Source: Asanoa ferruginea (GTDB taxonomy: Bacteria > Actinomycetota > Actinomycetes > Mycobacteriales > Micromonosporaceae). From it: 64,000 nt of DNA. The translations under genes were made by a program, and so were the position numbers. The stretch is from positions 1,674,001 to 1,738,000 of the forward strand of contig NZ_QUMQ01000001.1 of NCBI RefSeq assembly GCF_003387075.1, written 5' to 3'. The notes beneath the pieces are model-generated. The model did not search any database, had not been told where the DNA came from, and saw only the letters and a program-made list of their open reading frames with translations. The number at the start of each line of letters is the position of its first letter. Position 1 is the first letter of the stretch. Below are positions 56,641 to 64,000 of the stretch, piece by piece.

Positions 56641-57114
56641 ATGAGAAGACCCGCCGCCATGGTCGCCACGCTCGTTCTGGCCGCCACCGCGCTCAGCGCC
56701 TGCGGGTCGGTGGGAGGCAGCGCCATGCCAGGCACATCGTCGGCCGCATCATCGTCTTCAGCCCCGGAGCCGTCCGGCACTCCGACATCTCCACCGTCGT
56801 CGGTCGCGCCTCGCGACGGTGGTGCCACGCTGTCGCCGATCCCGCCGCCGACGTATCCACCAGGGCTAAACGGTCCGTCCGGGCCGACCGACAACCTCCC
56901 TCGCGACGTCGTCGGCGGGCGGGTGGTGAAGGGCGGGTCCGGCCCCTGCTACGCGGTGGAAACCGACGACGGGCGGCGCTTCGCACTGCACAGCGACGCC
57001 GGGCTGGTCCTCGAGGAGGGCAGCTACATCGTGGCCAAGGTCGGCCCGCTCCTGGCGCGGATCGACTGCGGCGAGGGCATACCCCGGGAGATGATCTCGT
57101 TCAACCGGCTGTGA
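56641..57114 (+). CDS. Small Ser/Pro-rich lipoprotein
   Basis: The 157-residue precursor has a lipoprotein signal (MRRPAAMVATLVLAATALSACGS, lipobox LSAC). A disordered Ser/Pro/Thr linker (about 24-70) leads to a compact C-terminal domain (about 88-157). That domain has two Cys (GPCYAVE and RIDCGEG) that probably form a disulfide. AAGGAAGG precedes the ATG. The end overlaps the convergent hydrolase gene by 14 bp. The function is unknown. Confidence 0.78.
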   Translation: MRRPAAMVATLVLAATALSACGSVGGSAMPGTSSAASSSSAPEPSGTPTSPPSSVAPRDGGATLSPIPPPTYPPGLNGPSGPTDNLPRDVVGGRVVKGGSGPCYAVETDDGRRFALHSDAGLVLEEGSYIVAKVGPLLARIDCGEGIPREMISFNRL

Positions 57115-58207
57115 GCTCGACCCAGTCGAACTCATGGCCGCACGGCGGCCCCTCGGCGACACCGAACCGGCGCTCGTCGAGATCCATCAGCACCGTGTAG
57201 ACGGTCTCCGAGCGCTCGAGATAGACATCGCGCTCGTCGACGTGCCGGCAGATCGCGTTCGGGTAGCTCTGGTGGTCGCGGAGGATCTCCGCCAGGTCGT
57301 CGTCGGTCAGCTTGCCCGGCTCGGCCGCAGCGGTCAGCAGCCGCCGGGCCCGGGCGGCCCGGAAGAGCGTCGACCCGCCGAAGTCGTTGACCAGGTCACG
57401 CACGGGCAACACGGTCTCCAGGTGGTTGGCGTGCGCGATCACCCCGTCGGCCGGGTGCAGCCAGCCGGCCGCACCGGGCACCAACTCCAGGTCGATCAAC
57501 TCGCCACCGGCGGGGCCGGCCTGGCCGAGCAGCAGGTTCATCGAGGCGTTGCGGGGGCTCGGCACGACCGCCTTGAGCGCGCGCCCGAGGGTGTCGGCTT
57601 CGAGCGCCGCGCGCAGCACCACGTGGTAGGGCACCCCGGGACGGTTCGGGTCGGCGCCGTCGCGGTCAGTGGTCAACATGTTGACGCAGATGCCGATTCC
57701 GGCGGAGTTGAGCCCGGCCTTGGCGAGCATGCCGGCCTCGGTGAGCGCGACGACCCGGTGGCCGTGCTCGTCGGTCGTGCTCAGCAGCACCATCGCCTGC
57801 CGCTGGTCAGGGTGCCAGTCCCAGTTTTGCGCCATCAGCGTGTGACCGGTCGCGGTGTGCGTGCCGAGCGCGCCGAGCACCGTGCAGCCACCGGCGGCGC
57901 CGTCGGGCGGCGTACCGTAGATCAATTCGGTTCGGGCATTGACCGCATAAAGGTCACCCACCGCGACCCCAGCGCCCTCGGCGGTGCCATCGAGCATCTC
58001 GGCGATCCGCGGGTAGAGCTTCACGGTCTCGCCGCGGAACGTCTCGCCCGCCGCGCGCGTCACGTCGGGCCCGAGCCCCACGGCCCGGAACCGCCGGGCG
58101 TAGAGATCCAGGTTGGCGGCGATCCGATCGCGTGCGGCCTGCCCGTAGGCGATGCCGCATTCGCCCGGTGTGCCACTGACTTCGACGTAAGGGACAGGCA
58201 GTGTCAT
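57101..58207 (-). CDS. C45-type peptidase / acyltransferase-like Ntn hydrolase
   Basis: The 368-residue protein resembles the C45 family (acyl-CoA:6-aminopenicillanic acid acyltransferase). The new N-terminal nucleophile after self-cleavage would be C108 in GGCTVLGAL. Conserved context includes GECGIAYGQAARDRI at about 15, GDLYAVNARTELIY at about 84, and AQNWDWHPDQ at about 125. The Asn-Trp-Asp segment is typical. The ATG at 58207 is the likely start. It is not next to any beta-lactam genes. The natural substrate is probably an amide, but is unknown. Confidence 0.8.
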   Translation of the reverse strand: MTLPVPYVEVSGTPGECGIAYGQAARDRIAANLDLYARRFRAVGLGPDVTRAAGETFRGETVKLYPRIAEMLDGTAEGAGVAVGDLYAVNARTELIYGTPPDGAAGGCTVLGALGTHTATGHTLMAQNWDWHPDQRQAMVLLSTTDEHGHRVVALTEAGMLAKAGLNSAGIGICVNMLTTDRDGADPNRPGVPYHVVLRAALEADTLGRALKAVVPSPRNASMNLLLGQAGPAGGELIDLELVPGAAGWLHPADGVIAHANHLETVLPVRDLVNDFGGSTLFRAARARRLLTAAAEPGKLTDDDLAEILRDHQSYPNAICRHVDERDVYLERSETVYTVLMDLDERRFGVAEGPPCGHEFDWVELTAG

Positions 58208-58288
58208 GTCCCTGACGGTAATCCCTAAGAGGTCCCTCCGGGAGATCTCCGGAGCCGGACCGGGGCGCGACTGACCTACGCTGGCCGG

Positions 58289-59209
58289 ATGGAACCCGTG
58301 GTAGACGAGACAAGCGTGCTGGTCGACGGCCCCTGGACGCACCGTTCGGTTGGCGCCAACGGCAACCGCTTCCACGTGGTCGAGGCCGGCGCCGGCCCGC
58401 TGGTGCTGTTCCTGCACGGCTTTCCCGAGTTCTGGTGGGCCTGGCACGAGATGCTGCCCGCAGTGGCCGATGCCGGCTTCCGGGCCGTCGCGGTGGATAT
58501 GCGGGGATACGGCGCCAGCGACAAACCGCCCAGGGGGTACGACGGGTTCACGATGGCCGCCGACGTCACCGGCCTGATCCGCGCACTGGGCGAGCGGGAG
58601 GCAACGATCGTCGGCGCCGGCTTCGGCGGGATGGTCGGCTGGGCCGCCGCCGCGTTCCACCCGAAGATGGTGCGCCGGCTGGTGGTGCTCGGCGCCGCGC
58701 ACCCGCTCCGGCTACGCGCGGCGATCTTCGCCGACCCACGCGGCCAGTTCAACGCCGCGACCCCGACACTGCGTTTCCAGCTCCCGCGCTACGAGCACGT
58801 GCTGGTCCGCGACGGCGCGAAGATGGTCGGCGACTTCCTGCGCCAGTGGTCCGGCCCGGCGTGGAAGCAGTCGGCCGGGTTCGACGACTACATCGCGCGC
58901 TGCCAGGAGGCGATGCGGATCCCGCAGGTCGCGTTCTGCGCGCTGGAGGGCTATCGCTGGGCGTTCCGCTCGGCGCTGCGGCTGCACGGCTATCGCTTCG
59001 TCAAGCAGATGCAGACGCCGCTGATCACGCCGACCTTGCAACTGCACGGGGCGCTAGACAACGCGGTGCTGCCGCGGACGGCGCAAGGATCAGGACGTTA
59101 CTGCGTCGCACCGTACGAGTGGCGCCTGCTGGATGGCGTCGGCCACTACCCACATCTCGAGGCACCCGACCTGGTGCTCGGCGAGGTGCTGCGCTGGGCT
59201 AAATCCTAG
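58289..59209 (+). CDS. Alpha/beta-hydrolase, EphE-like, nucleophile replaced by Gly
   Basis: The 306-residue protein has the epoxide hydrolase-type α/β fold, with oxyanion motif HGFPEFWWAWHE near 52 and the RGYGASDKP segment near 80. The nucleophile elbow reads G-A-G111-F-G-G, where epoxide hydrolases have Asp and serine hydrolases Ser at position 111. The acid (D257) and catalytic His (H286, GVGHYPHLEAP) remain. The gene corresponds in position to mycobacterial ephE (Rv3670). It may be a non-catalytic homologue or use another mechanism. The ATG is at 58289. Confidence 0.82.
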   Translation: MEPVVDETSVLVDGPWTHRSVGANGNRFHVVEAGAGPLVLFLHGFPEFWWAWHEMLPAVADAGFRAVAVDMRGYGASDKPPRGYDGFTMAADVTGLIRALGEREATIVGAGFGGMVGWAAAAFHPKMVRRLVVLGAAHPLRLRAAIFADPRGQFNAATPTLRFQLPRYEHVLVRDGAKMVGDFLRQWSGPAWKQSAGFDDYIARCQEAMRIPQVAFCALEGYRWAFRSALRLHGYRFVKQMQTPLITPTLQLHGALDNAVLPRTAQGSGRYCVAPYEWRLLDGVGHYPHLEAPDLVLGEVLRWAKS

Positions 59210-59568
59210 GCGCGTTGTTCGCGCAGGTCGCGGACCTCGTTGGCGGGTGCCCAGCCCTGGTAGACACCGAAGTCGAACGGTTCGAGGCCGAGCGACTCGG
59301 CGATCGGGGCCCGCCCGCCCGTGTATTCGACCCGCAACCAGCCGTCGTGCTCCGCCAGCACGATGAACGGCTCGCCTTTCCAGGAGCAGGTGGTGCGCAC
59401 GTAGGCGACCTCGTCGACCTCGGCCACCGGGACGACCCGGACGTAACGGCCGGTGCGCACTTCGGTGAAGCCGTCGCCGGGATCCGGCTGGTAGATCCGG
59501 ACCTGTTCGCCGTCGGGGCTGGCGTCGTATTCCCGGTCCTGCCAGCGGGCCACGTACCCGTCACGCAT
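59206..59568 (-). CDS. Hypothetical protein, partner gene of the SseB-domain protein
   Basis: The 120-residue protein has no signal peptide or membrane helix. It contains MRDGYVARWQDREYDASPDG, a β-rich middle (YVRVVPVAEVDEVAYVRTTCSWKGEPFIVLAEHDGWLRVEYTGG) and an acidic/basic end (WAPANEVRDLREQRA). The ATG shares a base with the stop of the giant SseB gene (TGATG), so the two are translated together and may interact. I do not recognise the family. It converges on the EphE-like gene with a 4-bp overlap. Confidence 0.7.
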   Translation of the reverse strand: MRDGYVARWQDREYDASPDGEQVRIYQPDPGDGFTEVRTGRYVRVVPVAEVDEVAYVRTTCSWKGEPFIVLAEHDGWLRVEYTGGRAPIAESLGLEPFDFGVYQGWAPANEVRDLREQRA

Positions 59569-62500
59569 CACTGGTCATCAACCCGATTCCACCCCGGCGC
59601 GTCGGCGTCGAGCACGGCGACCAGCTTCTCCGACCCGTCGGCGCGGATCAACCAGAGCTGCGCGCCGTGCGGCAGTCGGGCACTGTCCACCTTGAACTCC
59701 GCGATGACCTCACTGCCCTCACCGGGCGCGAACCCGTTGCCGCGGAAGGGCCCGCGCTCGATGACCCAGCCCTCCATCGCGCGCATCGCGGTCTCGTTCT
59801 GGCCGCCGTAAGGGATCCGGTAGAGGCTCGGCCGGTAGGCGGGCCAACGCAACACATAGACCTCGTCGGCGCCGGCGTCGAAGGGGCTGTTGGCGTAGCC
59901 CAGGCCGAGCGCGGTGAACAGCTGTGCCGGGCTGCTGAGGTGAGAGACTTCGGCGACCCGGTGCACGAACCCGGAAACCCGGTCATACCCGCGCTCCAGG
60001 TAGTAGTCGACCTGGCTCGGCGCGATCGTCTTCTGCATCATCGTCGGCAGCGCCGCATCCACTGCGGCCGGTGCGGGTGCCGGCTTCGGCGCCTCCTGCT
60101 TGGGCGCGGCCGCGACCACCGGCTCGTCGTCGCCGGCGTCGAGCCCAACCTCGGCGGCCCAGCTCGCGAGCGCCACGATCTGGGCCCCGGGTAGCTTCGC
60201 GCCCACCGGCGTGCCCGGGTTGACGGCGAACGACCAGTTTTCCTGCGGCCAGCGACTGATCAGCCGAACGAACTTGACGGTAACCGTCTCGTGCCCGTTG
60301 TCGAGGTGCTCGGCCATCCGCTCCGGCGACGTGAACACCACGACGTAGGGCTGGTCGTCGATCGTCTCGGTGCGCCAGACGAACCCGTCGCCACCCGGCT
60401 TGGCGCCGGCGCTCGAATCGCTGGAGACGGGCAGCAGCACCCGGGCGAGCAGCAACGTCGACAGGAAGGTGTCGGTGTTGCCGCTACCGGCGGCGGTGAG
60501 CAGGCTTTCCTCGACGTCGTTGGCCGGCCGGAAGTCGGCGGGCACCTCAGCGGTGAAAAGGCTGGTGTCGGCGGGCGGCTGGCCCGCCGCGGGCGCGGCC
60601 TGATCCAACCAGGACGGTGTCGGTGCGGTCGCCCAGGCCTGCGAGGTCGACGGAGCGTCTGCCGCCGCGAACGGTGTGACCGGCGTGCTGCTGGACCAAC
60701 CCGCGTGCGGGTCGCTCCCCTGGGTGGCGGCCTCGGTTTGGGTCGCCGGTGCGCTGTCTCGCCAGAGGTCCGCGGCGTCCGGTTGCGCGTCAACCGGTCC
60801 CGGTGCCCACCGCTGGTCTTCGCCGCGCGGCGCTTCTGCCGCGGCCGCCGCATCGTCGTGGTCGAGCCAGAGCTCGGCGTAGCTGGAGTCCGTCGCCGCC
60901 GCCGGCGCGTCGTCGCTCGGCGATGGCGTGCGGTCGTGCCAGATCTCAGTGGCGGAGGGCTCCGGAGCTTTCTCGGCGGCGGCTGCGCGATCCAGCCACA
61001 TCTCCGCCGCGCTGGGCTCCGCGGTCCCCGCCTCGGACGGCGCGGCGCTGTCGGACCATAGTCCGCTCGTCTGCGGCTTCTCGGCAGTGCCGGCTTCCGA
61101 CCATGACTGCGCGGCGGTGTTCGCGTGCGGCTTCACGCCCTCCGGCCCGTCAGTGTCGGGCTGTTGCGGTGCTGCCAGTGCCCCACCGTCCGACCACGTC
61201 TCAGCGGCCACACCGGCATTCGCCGGCTCGCTGCCCGACCACGCCTGCGCGGCGGCCCCAGGAGCCGCTTGCGACCGCTGGGTATCAGCCGGCGGCTTGC
61301 TGTCCGACCACAGGTCCGGGGCGGCATCGGAAGCCGCTGGCGACCGATCGGTGCCAGCCTGCGCTTGCGACGGCGTCTGACTCTCGGACCGCATCCGCGC
61401 CGCATCGGCAGTTGCCGTCGAGCCGGCACCCGCCGACGGCCTACCGTCGGCCCAGAGATCCGCCAGAGCCCCGGCCGCCGAAGACCGCTCGGCCTCAGCC
61501 GGCACATCCGGCGCCTTGCTGTCAGACCACAAGTCCGCCGCAGAGTCGGCCGTTGGGGATCGCCCGGCGCCTGCGGGCGACGTGGCTGACGACTCGTCGG
61601 ACGACGTACTGTCCGACCACAAGTCCGTGGCTGCGCTAGAGGCCGCCCGCGGCCTATCGGCGCCACCCGACACGTCGGACGACGACCCGCTGTCCGACCA
61701 CAAGTCAGTCGCCGCGCCAGAAGCCGCCCGCAGCTCGTCAGCGGCACGCGACATGTCGGAGGACGGCCTACTGTCCGACCACAAGTCCGTGGCTGCGCTA
61801 GAGGCCGCCCGCGGCCCATCGGCGCCACCCGACATGTCGGACGACGACCCACTGTCCGACCACAAGTCGGTCGCCGCAGTAGACGCTGATCGCGGGCCGT
61901 CAGCGCCGGCCGACGACCGGCTATCCGTCCGAGCGCTGGCGGCCGCCTTCGCACTGTCGGACCCGTCCGATACGTCCGCCGAGCTGCTGTCTGACCACAC
62001 GTCGGCCACCGCGCTGCGGGCCGGCTCTGACGACGGCGTGCTGTCTGACCACAGGTCCGTCGCCGCGCTCGGAACGGCCTGCGGCCGGGCGGCGGCGGCC
62101 GGCACGTCGGACGGATTGCCGTCGGACCACCGGTTCGTCGCAGCCGAGGACCGCTCGGCGTCAGAGGGCACGTCGGACGGCGGCTTGCTGTCTGACCACA
62201 GGTCGGTCGTCGCGCTGGGAATCGCTGCCGGCCTGTCGGCACCAGCCGGCACGCCGGGCGACGGTTTGCTGTCGGACCACATCTGCGCCGCGGTTGCCGA
62301 CGAACGGTCAGCGCGACCGGCCTCGGCGGACGAGGTGCCGTCGGGGCGGAGTTGCGACACCGCCGGCGACTGCGCGGTGCCCGGCGATGGCCTGCTGTCC
62401 GAGCCGACCTGCGCCGAGGCGGTGTGCGAGCGGCCGCCGGGTGCCTGGGCCGGCGATGCGTCATTGGGCCATCGCTGCGGCGCGGCCGACGCCGGGCGCG

Positions 62501-64000
62501 GCGGCTCGGCTCGGGCCGGGACCTCGGGAGTCGATGGGGGCTTGCTGTCTGCCCACAACTGCGGCGCCGCTGGTGTTGGGCTGCCGGCGGGGATCGCCGT
62601 CGAGCCCTCGGGAGCCGCGGCGGACCCGCGGTTGGACCACACCTTTGCCAAGGTTGACGCGCTTCGACCGGGCTTGCCGGCCGGCGGCTGCTCGGGCCAG
62701 GCCCGTCCGGGCGGCGTCGCGCCGGGGGTGCCGGCGTCGCTGGGCCGATCATCCGGACGCGGCGGCGCGGCCTCCGCCGCCCTCGTCGGGCCGGTGACCG
62801 GGTGGTCGGGCCAGAGTTGCCCGACGGTCGCCGCGGCGGCGCCGCTCGCGGGCGGACTGCCTGGCCTGCGCACCGGCAAGGGTGCCGAGTCGGTCTGCCG
62901 GGGCGGGTGCTCGGGTCGGGCTTGCGGCCCGCGCGAACCCGGGCTGTCTGATCCGCCGGGTGTCACGGAGCCGGGCCGGGCCTGGGGTGCGGGCGCAGCC
63001 GCGGCCGGCCAGGCCGGCGCCGGACGGGCTGGTGGTGTGCTGTCGGCCCATCCGGGTGCGCCGGGGTCGCGACCAGGCGCGGGCCTGGGCGGCGTCGGGG
63101 AGGCGGTGGGCGTACCCGCGGATGGTCTGGTTTCGGTTGGCACGCTGGCGCTGGCAGCCGCGTTGGCCGGCGACCAGTTGGTCTGGCGTGGGTCGTCGCG
63201 GGCGGCCGGCTGGCCGGGCCAACCCGGTGTGGCCGGGCGCCGTGGCGGCTCGGGGTCGGCCTCGGCTCCGCCGAAGAAGCCACCGCCCGACGTGGGCCTG
63301 GCCGGGGGTTGCGGAACGGGCGGCGGCGCGCCGAAACGGGCGGGCGGGGTCGCCCGCGCCGGGTCGTCGCGGAACGGGGAGCGCGGGCGCATCGGGGGCG
63401 CGGACTGGTCGATGACCTCGCGCGGCGGCTCCACAGGTGGGCGAAGCGGCCGGCGCGGCGGCGGGCCGCCCTGAACGACGGGCGGCGGCCAGGCTGTCGC
63501 CTCGCCGTTGGCCGCGGGCTGGCGGTCGTAGCCGTTGCCGCTCGGCTGCGAACGGTGTGGCGTGACGTCGGTGACCTGCGGCTGCGGGACCGGCCGGTAG
63601 GGCGGCGGGGTCGCGGGCGACGACGGGGTGGCATCGGTCGGGGCAACGCCCGCCCGCCGGCGGATCGAGGCGAGCGGCGAGTCGTAGCCGGGCGGCCGGG
63701 TCGGGCGATTGCGCTGCGGTGGCTCGATGCTGTCGGGCTCGAGGACCGGCCCGACCGCGGCCGCGGCACGGTCGACGAACGGCGGCTCGACGATCTCGCC
63801 CTGGACGACCTGCCCGGGGACAGTGGCCCGGGCGCGGGCGCGCGCGGCTGACTCGGCCCGGTCAAGGCGGGCGCGGGCGCCCATGGTGCGGCCGGGCAGG
63901 CGGACGTCACCGCGGGCTAGCTGCGAGACGAACCAGGCCGGCAGGTAGCCCTCGATCGGCAGGCCCGGGTTGACCGCGAGCCACCACTCCAGGTTGGGCC
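59568..64000 (-). CDS. Giant SseB-domain protein, N-terminal end outside window
   Basis: The reading frame is open from the right edge (64000) to the stop at 59568, at least 1476 codons. The first Met at 63884 is not the start, because the codons before it encode good protein (NLEWWLAVNPGLPIEGYLP...). That segment resembles WSFAVNPGTPVGAKLPG near the C-terminal end, so there are two SseB-like domains, one at each end. The C-terminal part (about the last 310 residues) also has a folded region with YYLERGYDRVSGFVHRV. Between the domains lie about 1000 residues of Pro/Ala/Ser-rich sequence with a repeated Trp-Ser-Asp motif. SseB-type proteins in actinobacteria are often tied to type VII secretion; here that is inference. 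Confidence 0.82.
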   Translation of the reverse strand, partial: PNLEWWLAVNPGLPIEGYLPAWFVSQLARGDVRLPGRTMGARARLDRAESAARARARATVPGQVVQGEIVEPPFVDRAAAAVGPVLEPDSIEPPQRNRPTRPPGYDSPLASIRRRAGVAPTDATPSSPATPPPYRPVPQPQVTDVTPHRSQPSGNGYDRQPAANGEATAWPPPVVQGGPPPRRPLRPPVEPPREVIDQSAPPMRPRSPFRDDPARATPPARFGAPPPVPQPPARPTSGGGFFGGAEADPEPPRRPATPGWPGQPAARDDPRQTNWSPANAAASASVPTETRPSAGTPTASPTPPRPAPGRDPGAPGWADSTPPARPAPAWPAAAAPAPQARPGSVTPGGSDSPGSRGPQARPEHPPRQTDSAPLPVRRPGSPPASGAAAATVGQLWPDHPVTGPTRAAEAAPPRPDDRPSDAGTPGATPPGRAWPEQPPAGKPGRSASTLAKVWSNRGSAAAPEGSTAIPAGSPTPAAPQLWADSKPPSTPEVPARAEPPRPASAAPQRWPNDASPAQAPGGRSHTASAQVGSDSRPSPGTAQSPAVSQLRPDGTSSAEAGRADRSSATAAQMWSDSKPSPGVPAGADRPAAIPSATTDLWSDSKPPSDVPSDAERSSAATNRWSDGNPSDVPAAAARPQAVPSAATDLWSDSTPSSEPARSAVADVWSDSSSADVSDGSDSAKAAASARTDSRSSAGADGPRSASTAATDLWSDSGSSSDMSGGADGPRAASSAATDLWSDSRPSSDMSRAADELRAASGAATDLWSDSGSSSDVSGGADRPRAASSAATDLWSDSTSSDESSATSPAGAGRSPTADSAADLWSDSKAPDVPAEAERSSAAGALADLWADGRPSAGAGSTATADAARMRSESQTPSQAQAGTDRSPAASDAAPDLWSDSKPPADTQRSQAAPGAAAQAWSGSEPANAGVAAETWSDGGALAAPQQPDTDGPEGVKPHANTAAQSWSEAGTAEKPQTSGLWSDSAAPSEAGTAEPSAAEMWLDRAAAAEKAPEPSATEIWHDRTPSPSDDAPAAATDSSYAELWLDHDDAAAAAEAPRGEDQRWAPGPVDAQPDAADLWRDSAPATQTEAATQGSDPHAGWSSSTPVTPFAAADAPSTSQAWATAPTPSWLDQAAPAAGQPPADTSLFTAEVPADFRPANDVEESLLTAAGSGNTDTFLSTLLLARVLLPVSSDSSAGAKPGGDGFVWRTETIDDQPYVVVFTSPERMAEHLDNGHETVTVKFVRLISRWPQENWSFAVNPGTPVGAKLPGAQIVALASWAAEVGLDAGDDEPVVAAAPKQEAPKPAPAPAAVDAALPTMMQKTIAPSQVDYYLERGYDRVSGFVHRVAEVSHLSSPAQLFTALGLGYANSPFDAGADEVYVLRWPAYRPSLYRIPYGGQNETAMRAMEGWVIERGPFRGNGFAPGEGSEVIAEFKVDSARLPHGAQLWLIRADGSEKLVAVLDADAPGWNRVDDQ
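60750..62820 (-). repeat. Repeated W-S-D-S motif region in the SseB-domain protein
   Basis: At least 22 copies of W-(S/A/P/L)-(D/E/N), most often LWSDS, occur at intervals of roughly 20-45 residues. The spacers are rich in Ala, Ser, Pro, Asp and Glu. Some neighbouring copies are almost identical at the DNA level (GTCCGACCACAAGTC at about 61310, 61610, 61690, 61780 and 61855), so part of the array has recently duplicated. The region looks disordered, with tryptophans as evenly placed hydrophobic points. Confidence 0.85.

Follow-up and report, generated by a model that had tools for sequence, protein, structure and literature searches.

Results

A giant gene with two SseB domains

The window analysed here is a stretch of 64,000 nucleotides of Asanoa ferruginea (Micromonosporaceae; RefSeq assembly GCF_003387075.1, contig NZ_QUMQ01000001.1, positions 1,674,001 to 1,738,000), at the right end of which a giant gene encodes two SseB domains joined by a long linker with recurrent tryptophan motifs, followed by an overlapping gene for a 120-residue protein (Table 1). 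Completing the giant gene to the right placed its start at C1:1738289, 289 bases past the window edge, and gave a product of about 1,571 residues (1,571-1,573), in which a linker of 1,104 residues separates two SseB domains and a C-terminal module (about 155 residues) follows the second of them. The preliminary description of the window, made from its letters, had recognized two SseB-like ends joined by a low-complexity chain, and the SseB profile (PF07179) indeed matched at both ends (66.2 bits in two stretches, cut-off 21). The SseB of Salmonella, a type III translocon protein, is a namesake from another family. In a profile search of the host genome at E <= 0.001, the two stretches of the giant gene were the only SseB matches.

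Because the host genome is a single 9.07-Mb contig and the giant gene is present as one frame of 1,494-1,617 residues in four other Asanoa genomes, it is not an assembly artefact; the earlier reservation that the linker might be the product of assembly error was not borne out by these intact frames. In a fifth Asanoa genome (G004), the gene is split across two contigs, C27 and C66 (L030 and L031), the break in this draft assembly falling within the linker repeats; drafts may therefore show the giant gene as shorter than it is.

The ends of the protein are approximately 55-100% identical across the loci read, and linkers of different genera share little. The second SseB domain matched PF07179 in 20 of 20 aligned members, and the C-terminal part was matched in all 200 Micromonosporaceae genomes drawn, representing 44 genera, with a few matches that were weak or fell on a paralogue (for example, G172, E 3.3e-9). 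Searches of Pfam, NCBIfam and PDB sequences returned no reliable match that would name the C-terminal module or the 120-residue protein. In one single-contig genome, two frames each hold part of the second SseB domain (L076:2926-3875), the result of a frameshift or a sequencing error.

Table 1. Features of the giant tandem-SseB gene and its neighbour in the window (positions are those of the window unless marked as genome)
Feature	Position	Strand	Remarks
Giant tandem-SseB gene, part inside the window	59568..64000	-	Open frame; whole gene at genome C1:1733568-1738289
N-terminal SseB domain, tail inside the window	63948..64000	-	PF07179 at genome 1737948-1738244, 30.1 bits
Linker, 1,104 residues, 34 tryptophans; 24 W[SAPL][DEN], 10 D[LF]W	60528..63839	-	Predicted disordered from composition
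Most regular tryptophan array, 81-base (27-residue) tandem units with ATDLWSDS	61600..61914	-	Tandem Repeats Finder; TD[LF]Wx[DE] sites at 61612-61871
Second SseB domain	60177..60500	-	PF07179 at genome 1734177-1734500, 46.6 bits
Conserved C-terminal module, about 155 residues	59580..60047	-	From alignment; without reliable Pfam or PDB match
Gene for the 120-residue protein	59206..59571	-	Downstream; overlaps the stop codon of the giant gene

Tryptophan motifs in the linker

The preliminary description had counted at least 22 W-(S/A/P/L)-(D/E/N) motifs in the linker; we counted 24, compared with a mean of 2.28 and a maximum of 9 in 2,000 composition-preserving shuffles. Although a tryptophan motif is clearly recurrent, the form that recurs across species is ATDLWSx and not the Trp-Ser-Asp core first proposed. 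At the DNA level, all six sites of the pattern TD[LF]Wx[DE] in the window lie in the giant gene, a number reached in none of 100 shuffles, and the host genome has 12 sites of the TD[LF]W pattern, six of them inside the giant gene. Across 354 genomes of the family, a few background sites per genome, among the matches listed, mask small arrays.

The tryptophans of the host linker are more evenly spaced than expected at random (coefficient of variation 0.58 vs 0.94, P = 0.0008), in part as a result of the 27-residue (81-base) tandem period. The even spacing noted earlier was present in four of the five Asanoa species, but not in G005 (P = 0.85). Likewise, the chain described as acidic is net acidic, but only mildly so (131 Asp and Glu against 88 Lys and Arg). 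We infer that the linker is disordered: judged from composition, its mean TOP-IDP value is 0.25 compared with 0.07 and 0.11 in the ends, and all five Asanoa linkers fall marginally on the disordered side of the Uversky hydropathy boundary. No membrane-like stretch is present, the highest 19-residue hydropathy mean being 1.14.

The consensus of sliding-clamp-binding peptides is Q-x-[SD]-L-F. The tryptophan motif was considered as such a peptide and rejected, since the Gln is missing and the pattern Q.[SDP][LMIVF][FW] occurs in the five Asanoa linkers as a single QTDLW; the corresponding count outside Asanoa covered 119 entries, of which about 20 are without a linker.

Selective retention of aromatic residues

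In all five Asanoa linkers, the ratio of non-synonymous to synonymous difference (pN/pS) was lower in motif cores (0.68-0.77) than in spacers (0.94-0.99). As motif instances were chosen by Trp and by Asp, Glu or Gln at -2, only the other core positions contribute independently to this contrast. Non-synonymous differences were fewer in the cores (pN 0.40-0.45 vs 0.59-0.65), whereas synonymous differences were similar and near saturation (pS 0.55-0.63 vs 0.62-0.68); therefore, the motifs are old and have been kept, rather than being fresh copies of DNA.

Retention of aromatics points in the same direction. Between the linkers of A. hainanensis and A. ishikariensis, which have diverged to a synonymous distance (dS) of 0.67, 48 of 50 aromatic residues were kept (33 of 35 Trp, 10 of 10 Phe and 5 of 5 Tyr), whereas every non-aromatic residue was kept at 25-71%. 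The ratio of non-synonymous to synonymous distance (dN/dS) for this pair was 0.28 in the linker and 0.05 and 0.13 in the folded ends. In two more diverged pairs, Trp was kept at 23 of 38 and 19 of 29 positions and was still the best-kept residue. As a rough control, paired frames of the same stretches were compared in the same two species; the frames presumed to be non-genic mostly kept aromatics worse than other residues, indicating that the aligner does not create the retention. In the EccE protein, at 65% identity, 29 of 37 aromatics were kept compared with 68% of other residues. Together, these comparisons show the linker to be an intact reading frame under selection, in which the aromatic residues are kept.

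Variation of the linker across the family

The locus set contained 125 loci, including six duplicates (L127-L130, L150 and L163) and one contig represented by its two ends (L159 and L160); both ends and the linker lie in one frame in 104 of these loci, and in 17 the frame begins at the edge of the contig or locus. In the loci read, the linker ranged from 42 to 1,175 residues, and the upper limit may be higher, as a frame of 1,902 residues in G028 lies outside the set of linkers read. Tryptophans mostly numbered 0-7, with higher counts in L137 (8), L088 (14) and L078 (15). A dense array was found only in Asanoa, where multiplication of ATDLWS has given 10-19 D[LF]W cores and 29-37 tryptophans (33 in sum for the two linker pieces of G004). 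Thus, the expectation that tryptophan number would be conserved in close relatives held within Asanoa but not in the wider family.

Outside Asanoa, the linker of genus g42 (L078) carries seven [TA]D[LF]W repeats of the type [TA]D[LF]WADS. As the six other members of its clade (support 100/99) have linkers of only 42-187 residues with 0-1 tryptophans, the g42 repeats are best read as a separate second gain; one of the comparisons behind this reading covered 113 entries, the six duplicates being dropped, of which about 20 lack a linker because their frames are cut or broken. The 14 tryptophans of L088 (genus g44) stand without a motif of the ATDLWS type.

Phenylalanine motifs take the place of tryptophan motifs in several other genera. 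The pattern [SDTE][LF][FW][STEGA]P occurred in 54 of 92 non-Asanoa linkers (limit 80 residues; shuffle mean 2.2, maximum 9), most of the linkers tallied being from Micromonospora and its kin, and FFEP was present in 41 of the 52 linkers of the Micromonospora type (shuffles: mean 0.21, maximum 3; loci from L126 on with linkers of at least 300 residues, eight loci of other genera being left out). In these otherwise variable linkers (among L134-L205), a motif of the RSFFEPASGR type is strongly conserved, mostly about 105-195 residues in. Several Micromonospora linkers have DLWTP-type copies 56-72 residues before the second SseB region, and relatives have [SD]LFTP at 41-68 residues. Aromatic density is alike (3.8-4.6% in Asanoa and a median of 3.4% elsewhere; limit 150 residues, six duplicates dropped here as in the preceding pattern count), and the share of Trp among linker aromatics is 68-74% in Asanoa and 15% elsewhere. 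Overall, comparison of sequences across the Micromonosporaceae shows two SseB domains and a C-terminal module that are kept, and between them a hypervariable linker in which aromatics and short motifs are selectively kept.

Two rival explanations of this pattern were weighed. In the first, the linker is free to take any length, GC-rich tandem units grow in it near-neutrally, and the tryptophans are without function. Linker length and motif number vary freely, tandem arrays are present, most genera have few tryptophans, and the EccE protein of the same species, unlike that of four other Asanoa, has an unrelated tryptophan-containing repeat insert (see below), as this explanation would predict. 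Nevertheless, it appears improbable, as the aromatics are retained at a considerable synonymous distance with a bias of the aligner unlikely, the motif core is conserved despite synonymous saturation, and a very similar motif was gained separately in g42. In the second, the linker is a plain entropic tether that merely spaces the two SseB domains, so that only its length or solubility matters. Such a tether would accord with conserved ends joined by linkers that share little between genera, but linker length, which spans an at least 28-fold range, is not tightly controlled, and conserved islands such as FFEP, together with the aromatic retention, exceed a spacing role; we consider it quite unlikely.

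The 120-residue protein and the C-terminal module

The 120-residue gene adjoins the giant gene in 125 of 125 loci (119 of 119 without duplicates), and the stop-start overlap has the same offset (-1) in 111 of 125. The preliminary description had proposed that this coupled protein is the partner of the tryptophan motifs, so that a chain of bound copies would form on the linker. The recurrent overlap would suit such a reader, as would a weak likeness to SH3 folds, which bind peptides; however, the best SH3-like Pfam match (18.1 bits, cut-off 25.8) covers only 18 residues, and the protein does not qualify as an SH3-domain protein at the profile cut-off. Moreover, the gene is equally present beside linkers with 0-1 tryptophans, and the protein has no substitution that is fixed in Asanoa and rare elsewhere.

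The distribution of the protein outside the family points instead to the C-terminal module. Of 296 genomes sampled from the class, 13 were matched by a profile of the 120-residue protein, and ten of these 13 do not belong to the Micromonosporaceae; in nine of nine loci from these ten genomes, the C-terminal module lies near the 120-residue-like gene, and an SseB match was found in four. In L213, the 120-residue protein stands beside a frame for the C-terminal module, with no SseB match within the stretch examined. Furthermore, in all five paralogues examined (L022, L023, L024, L025 and L113, at approximately 1011-2391; 415-453 residues), the C-terminal module and a 120-residue-like domain are fused in one protein; the one tested had no Pfam match. 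Based on this co-occurrence and fusion, the C-terminal module and the 120-residue protein, often with SseB, form the stable unit, and the 120-residue protein is probably the partner of the C-terminal module rather than a receptor of the tryptophan motifs, a role that we now regard as highly doubtful.

Several further copies were observed. The host genome has a weak match to the fused paralogue at C1:3054969-3055163. In L210, from outside the family, genes for SseB, the C-terminal module and a 120-residue-like protein lie beside a YbaB-family gene; a neighbour suspected to be WXG100-like had no Pfam match and was dropped, leaving the YbaB-family gene as the only one confirmed. A plasmid collection yielded one distant match, in a Nonomuraea record.

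A type VII secretion context

To judge from its genes, the neighbourhood of the giant gene is a type VII (ESX) secretion locus. Two WXG100 genes (an EsxA-EsxB pair) and EccB (268 bits, cut-off 154) are located upstream of the giant gene on its strand, and a gene with partial EccE matches (74 bits, cut-off 108) diverges from EccB. EccB, EsxA-EsxB and EccE are shared with the ESX-4-type loci of Micromonosporales (PMC4791881), whose accessible description does not list SseB as an ESX component. In the window species, the gap that separates the Esx pair from the SseB gene is about 390 bases long and contains no mycosin-sized frame, and other Asanoa are alike. A mycosin match over the cut-off lies directly upstream of the giant gene in G015, and a subtilase-like gene occupies the gap in L130; elsewhere in the host genome, at 2.17 Mb, lies another EccB, with a mycosin some 9 kb from it. 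The giant gene is found mostly in type VII secretion loci: 97 of 103 testable loci, or 91 of 97 once duplicates are removed, have WXG100 genes no more than 4.2 kb upstream. The loci without such genes are L063, L066, L069, L194, L198 and L205. L063 and L066 share a contig with EccB, whose end lies about 10 kb and 5 kb upstream, respectively; in L069 and L194 (S. oceanensis), EccB is more than 1 Mb away; and in L198 (S. pacifica), it is on other contigs.

Two further observations on the neighbourhood were recorded. The EccE-like protein of the window species, encoded to the right of the window (L007:15837-18437; genome C1:1740836-1743436), has about 195 residues between its matched ends, with eight tryptophans and repeats of the NWS[AP]xH[DE]P type. 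The same region has 19-60 residues and no tryptophan in four other Asanoa; the insert looks like recent tandem growth, and the idea that it is a matched partner of the linker was dropped on account of this absence. On the minus strand at 57101-58297 of the window lies a gene for a C45-family autoproteolytic acyltransferase (239.5 bits, cut-off 85).

Discussion

We tentatively propose that the giant protein acts in the cytoplasm as an adaptor belonging to a type VII (ESX) secretion locus, with its linker as a multivalent tether of aromatic motifs, a reading that seems possible though by no means assured. SseB has been predicted to be a peptide-binding chaperone through its relation to the Tic22 chaperones (PMC9503650). 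In our proposal, the giant protein would stay in the cytoplasm, where its SseB domains may hold peptides and its C-terminal module may be bound by the 120-residue protein. The linker would serve as a multivalent tether whose aromatic motifs engage one another or a conserved site, for which the candidates are an SseB pocket (in cis or in trans) and a different client associated with ESX. In this way, a number of adaptor molecules could be held together with their clients near the secretion apparatus, and the copy number of the motif would tune avidity. The disordered-looking linker and the purifying selection on its recurrent aromatic motifs are what the sticker-and-spacer scaffold or chain of binding motifs envisaged in the preliminary description would predict, whereas the 120-residue receptor is not supported. 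The parts assigned to secretion, partner binding and condensate formation are all inferred from sequence.

Several observations weigh against this proposal. Linkers are poor in tryptophan in most genera, and the pattern [SDTE][LF][FW][STEGA]P is not universal, since of the 25 non-Asanoa genera in one locus set only three (g4, g32 and g44) had it. Aromatic spacing was even at P < 0.05 in only 15 of 89 testable linkers of the family (limit 150 residues, six duplicates dropped) and clustered in three, and the frame is broken or cut in four loci that do not start at a locus end (L076, L146, L152 and L201). The search for a co-adapted binding face, that is, for substitutions fixed in Asanoa and rare elsewhere, gave one in the first SseB domain, one in the second SseB domain and C-terminal module, none in the 120-residue protein and none shared with g42. 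Finally, three Salinispora loci and L069 have the gene pair at a distance from WXG100 genes, and no EccB match was found in the draft genome of L205 (S. cortesiana, G649). These loci suggest that the core function may not need a type VII system, and they would fit a general peptide chaperone or adaptor that acts independently of secretion and is merely sited in ESX loci. The Streptomyces SseB genes that sit with acdB and pirin genes (PMC13118837) would also agree with such a general role. However, WXG100 genes accompany the giant gene in the great majority of testable loci, and we consider a general chaperone somewhat unlikely.

A more specific version of the ESX adaptor proposal, a bacterial 'valency dial', is that the linker evolves through multiplication of a single aromatic motif that a fixed site on SseB or an ESX client reads, with tryptophan-type arrays gained separately in Asanoa and g42, and that these arrays suffice for client-concentrating condensates to form at the secretion machine. 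Micromonospora and certain other genera have one copy or a few of the phenylalanine type, and the tryptophan type numbers 10-19 cores in Asanoa and seven in g42. We regard this version as unlikely as a whole.

Each of the elements, whether SseB domain, ESX locus or motif-repeat tail, is of a kind already described, and their combination was not found in open PubMed Central papers, in agreement with the earlier statement that no system of this form was known to have been described. Searches there for SseB together with type VII secretion or WXG100, and for DLW motifs, gave nothing on the giant protein, and the accessible text of PMC3482391 does not mention SseB. Compared with the SseB family, to which both ends belong by profile match above the cut-off (PF07179, PMC9503650), the giant protein differs in having two copies, a linker of about 1,100 residues between them and a C-terminal module without a family name. 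Compared by description only, Rathayibacter toxicus, another actinobacterium, has an SseB-like gene that is likewise unusually long, at 6,783 nt (PMC7143919). The linker also resembles the disordered tails of vertebrate galectins, in which aromatic-motif repeats have expanded separately by lineage, with a differing type of aromatic and a similar overall composition (PMC12979664), and the FG-repeat domains of Nup98, in which short aromatic motifs are joined by spacers (PMC9918544). In contrast to our proposal, phase separation of the galectins, which are eukaryotic lectins, and cohesion of the FG repeats have been demonstrated; no homology to either is claimed.

If our proposal is correct, the known content of type VII secretion loci is extended by a pair of cytoplasmic adaptor proteins that is maintained throughout an actinomycete family. 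Attention is also drawn to the C-terminal module and the 120-residue protein, both conserved, for neither of which a family name was found. The family would then hold a natural series of linkers (42-1,175 residues, 0-37 tryptophans, of the phenylalanine or the tryptophan type) between conserved ends, which would offer a ready-made test of the way in which multivalent binding in bacteria is tuned by the number of motifs and the type of aromatic.

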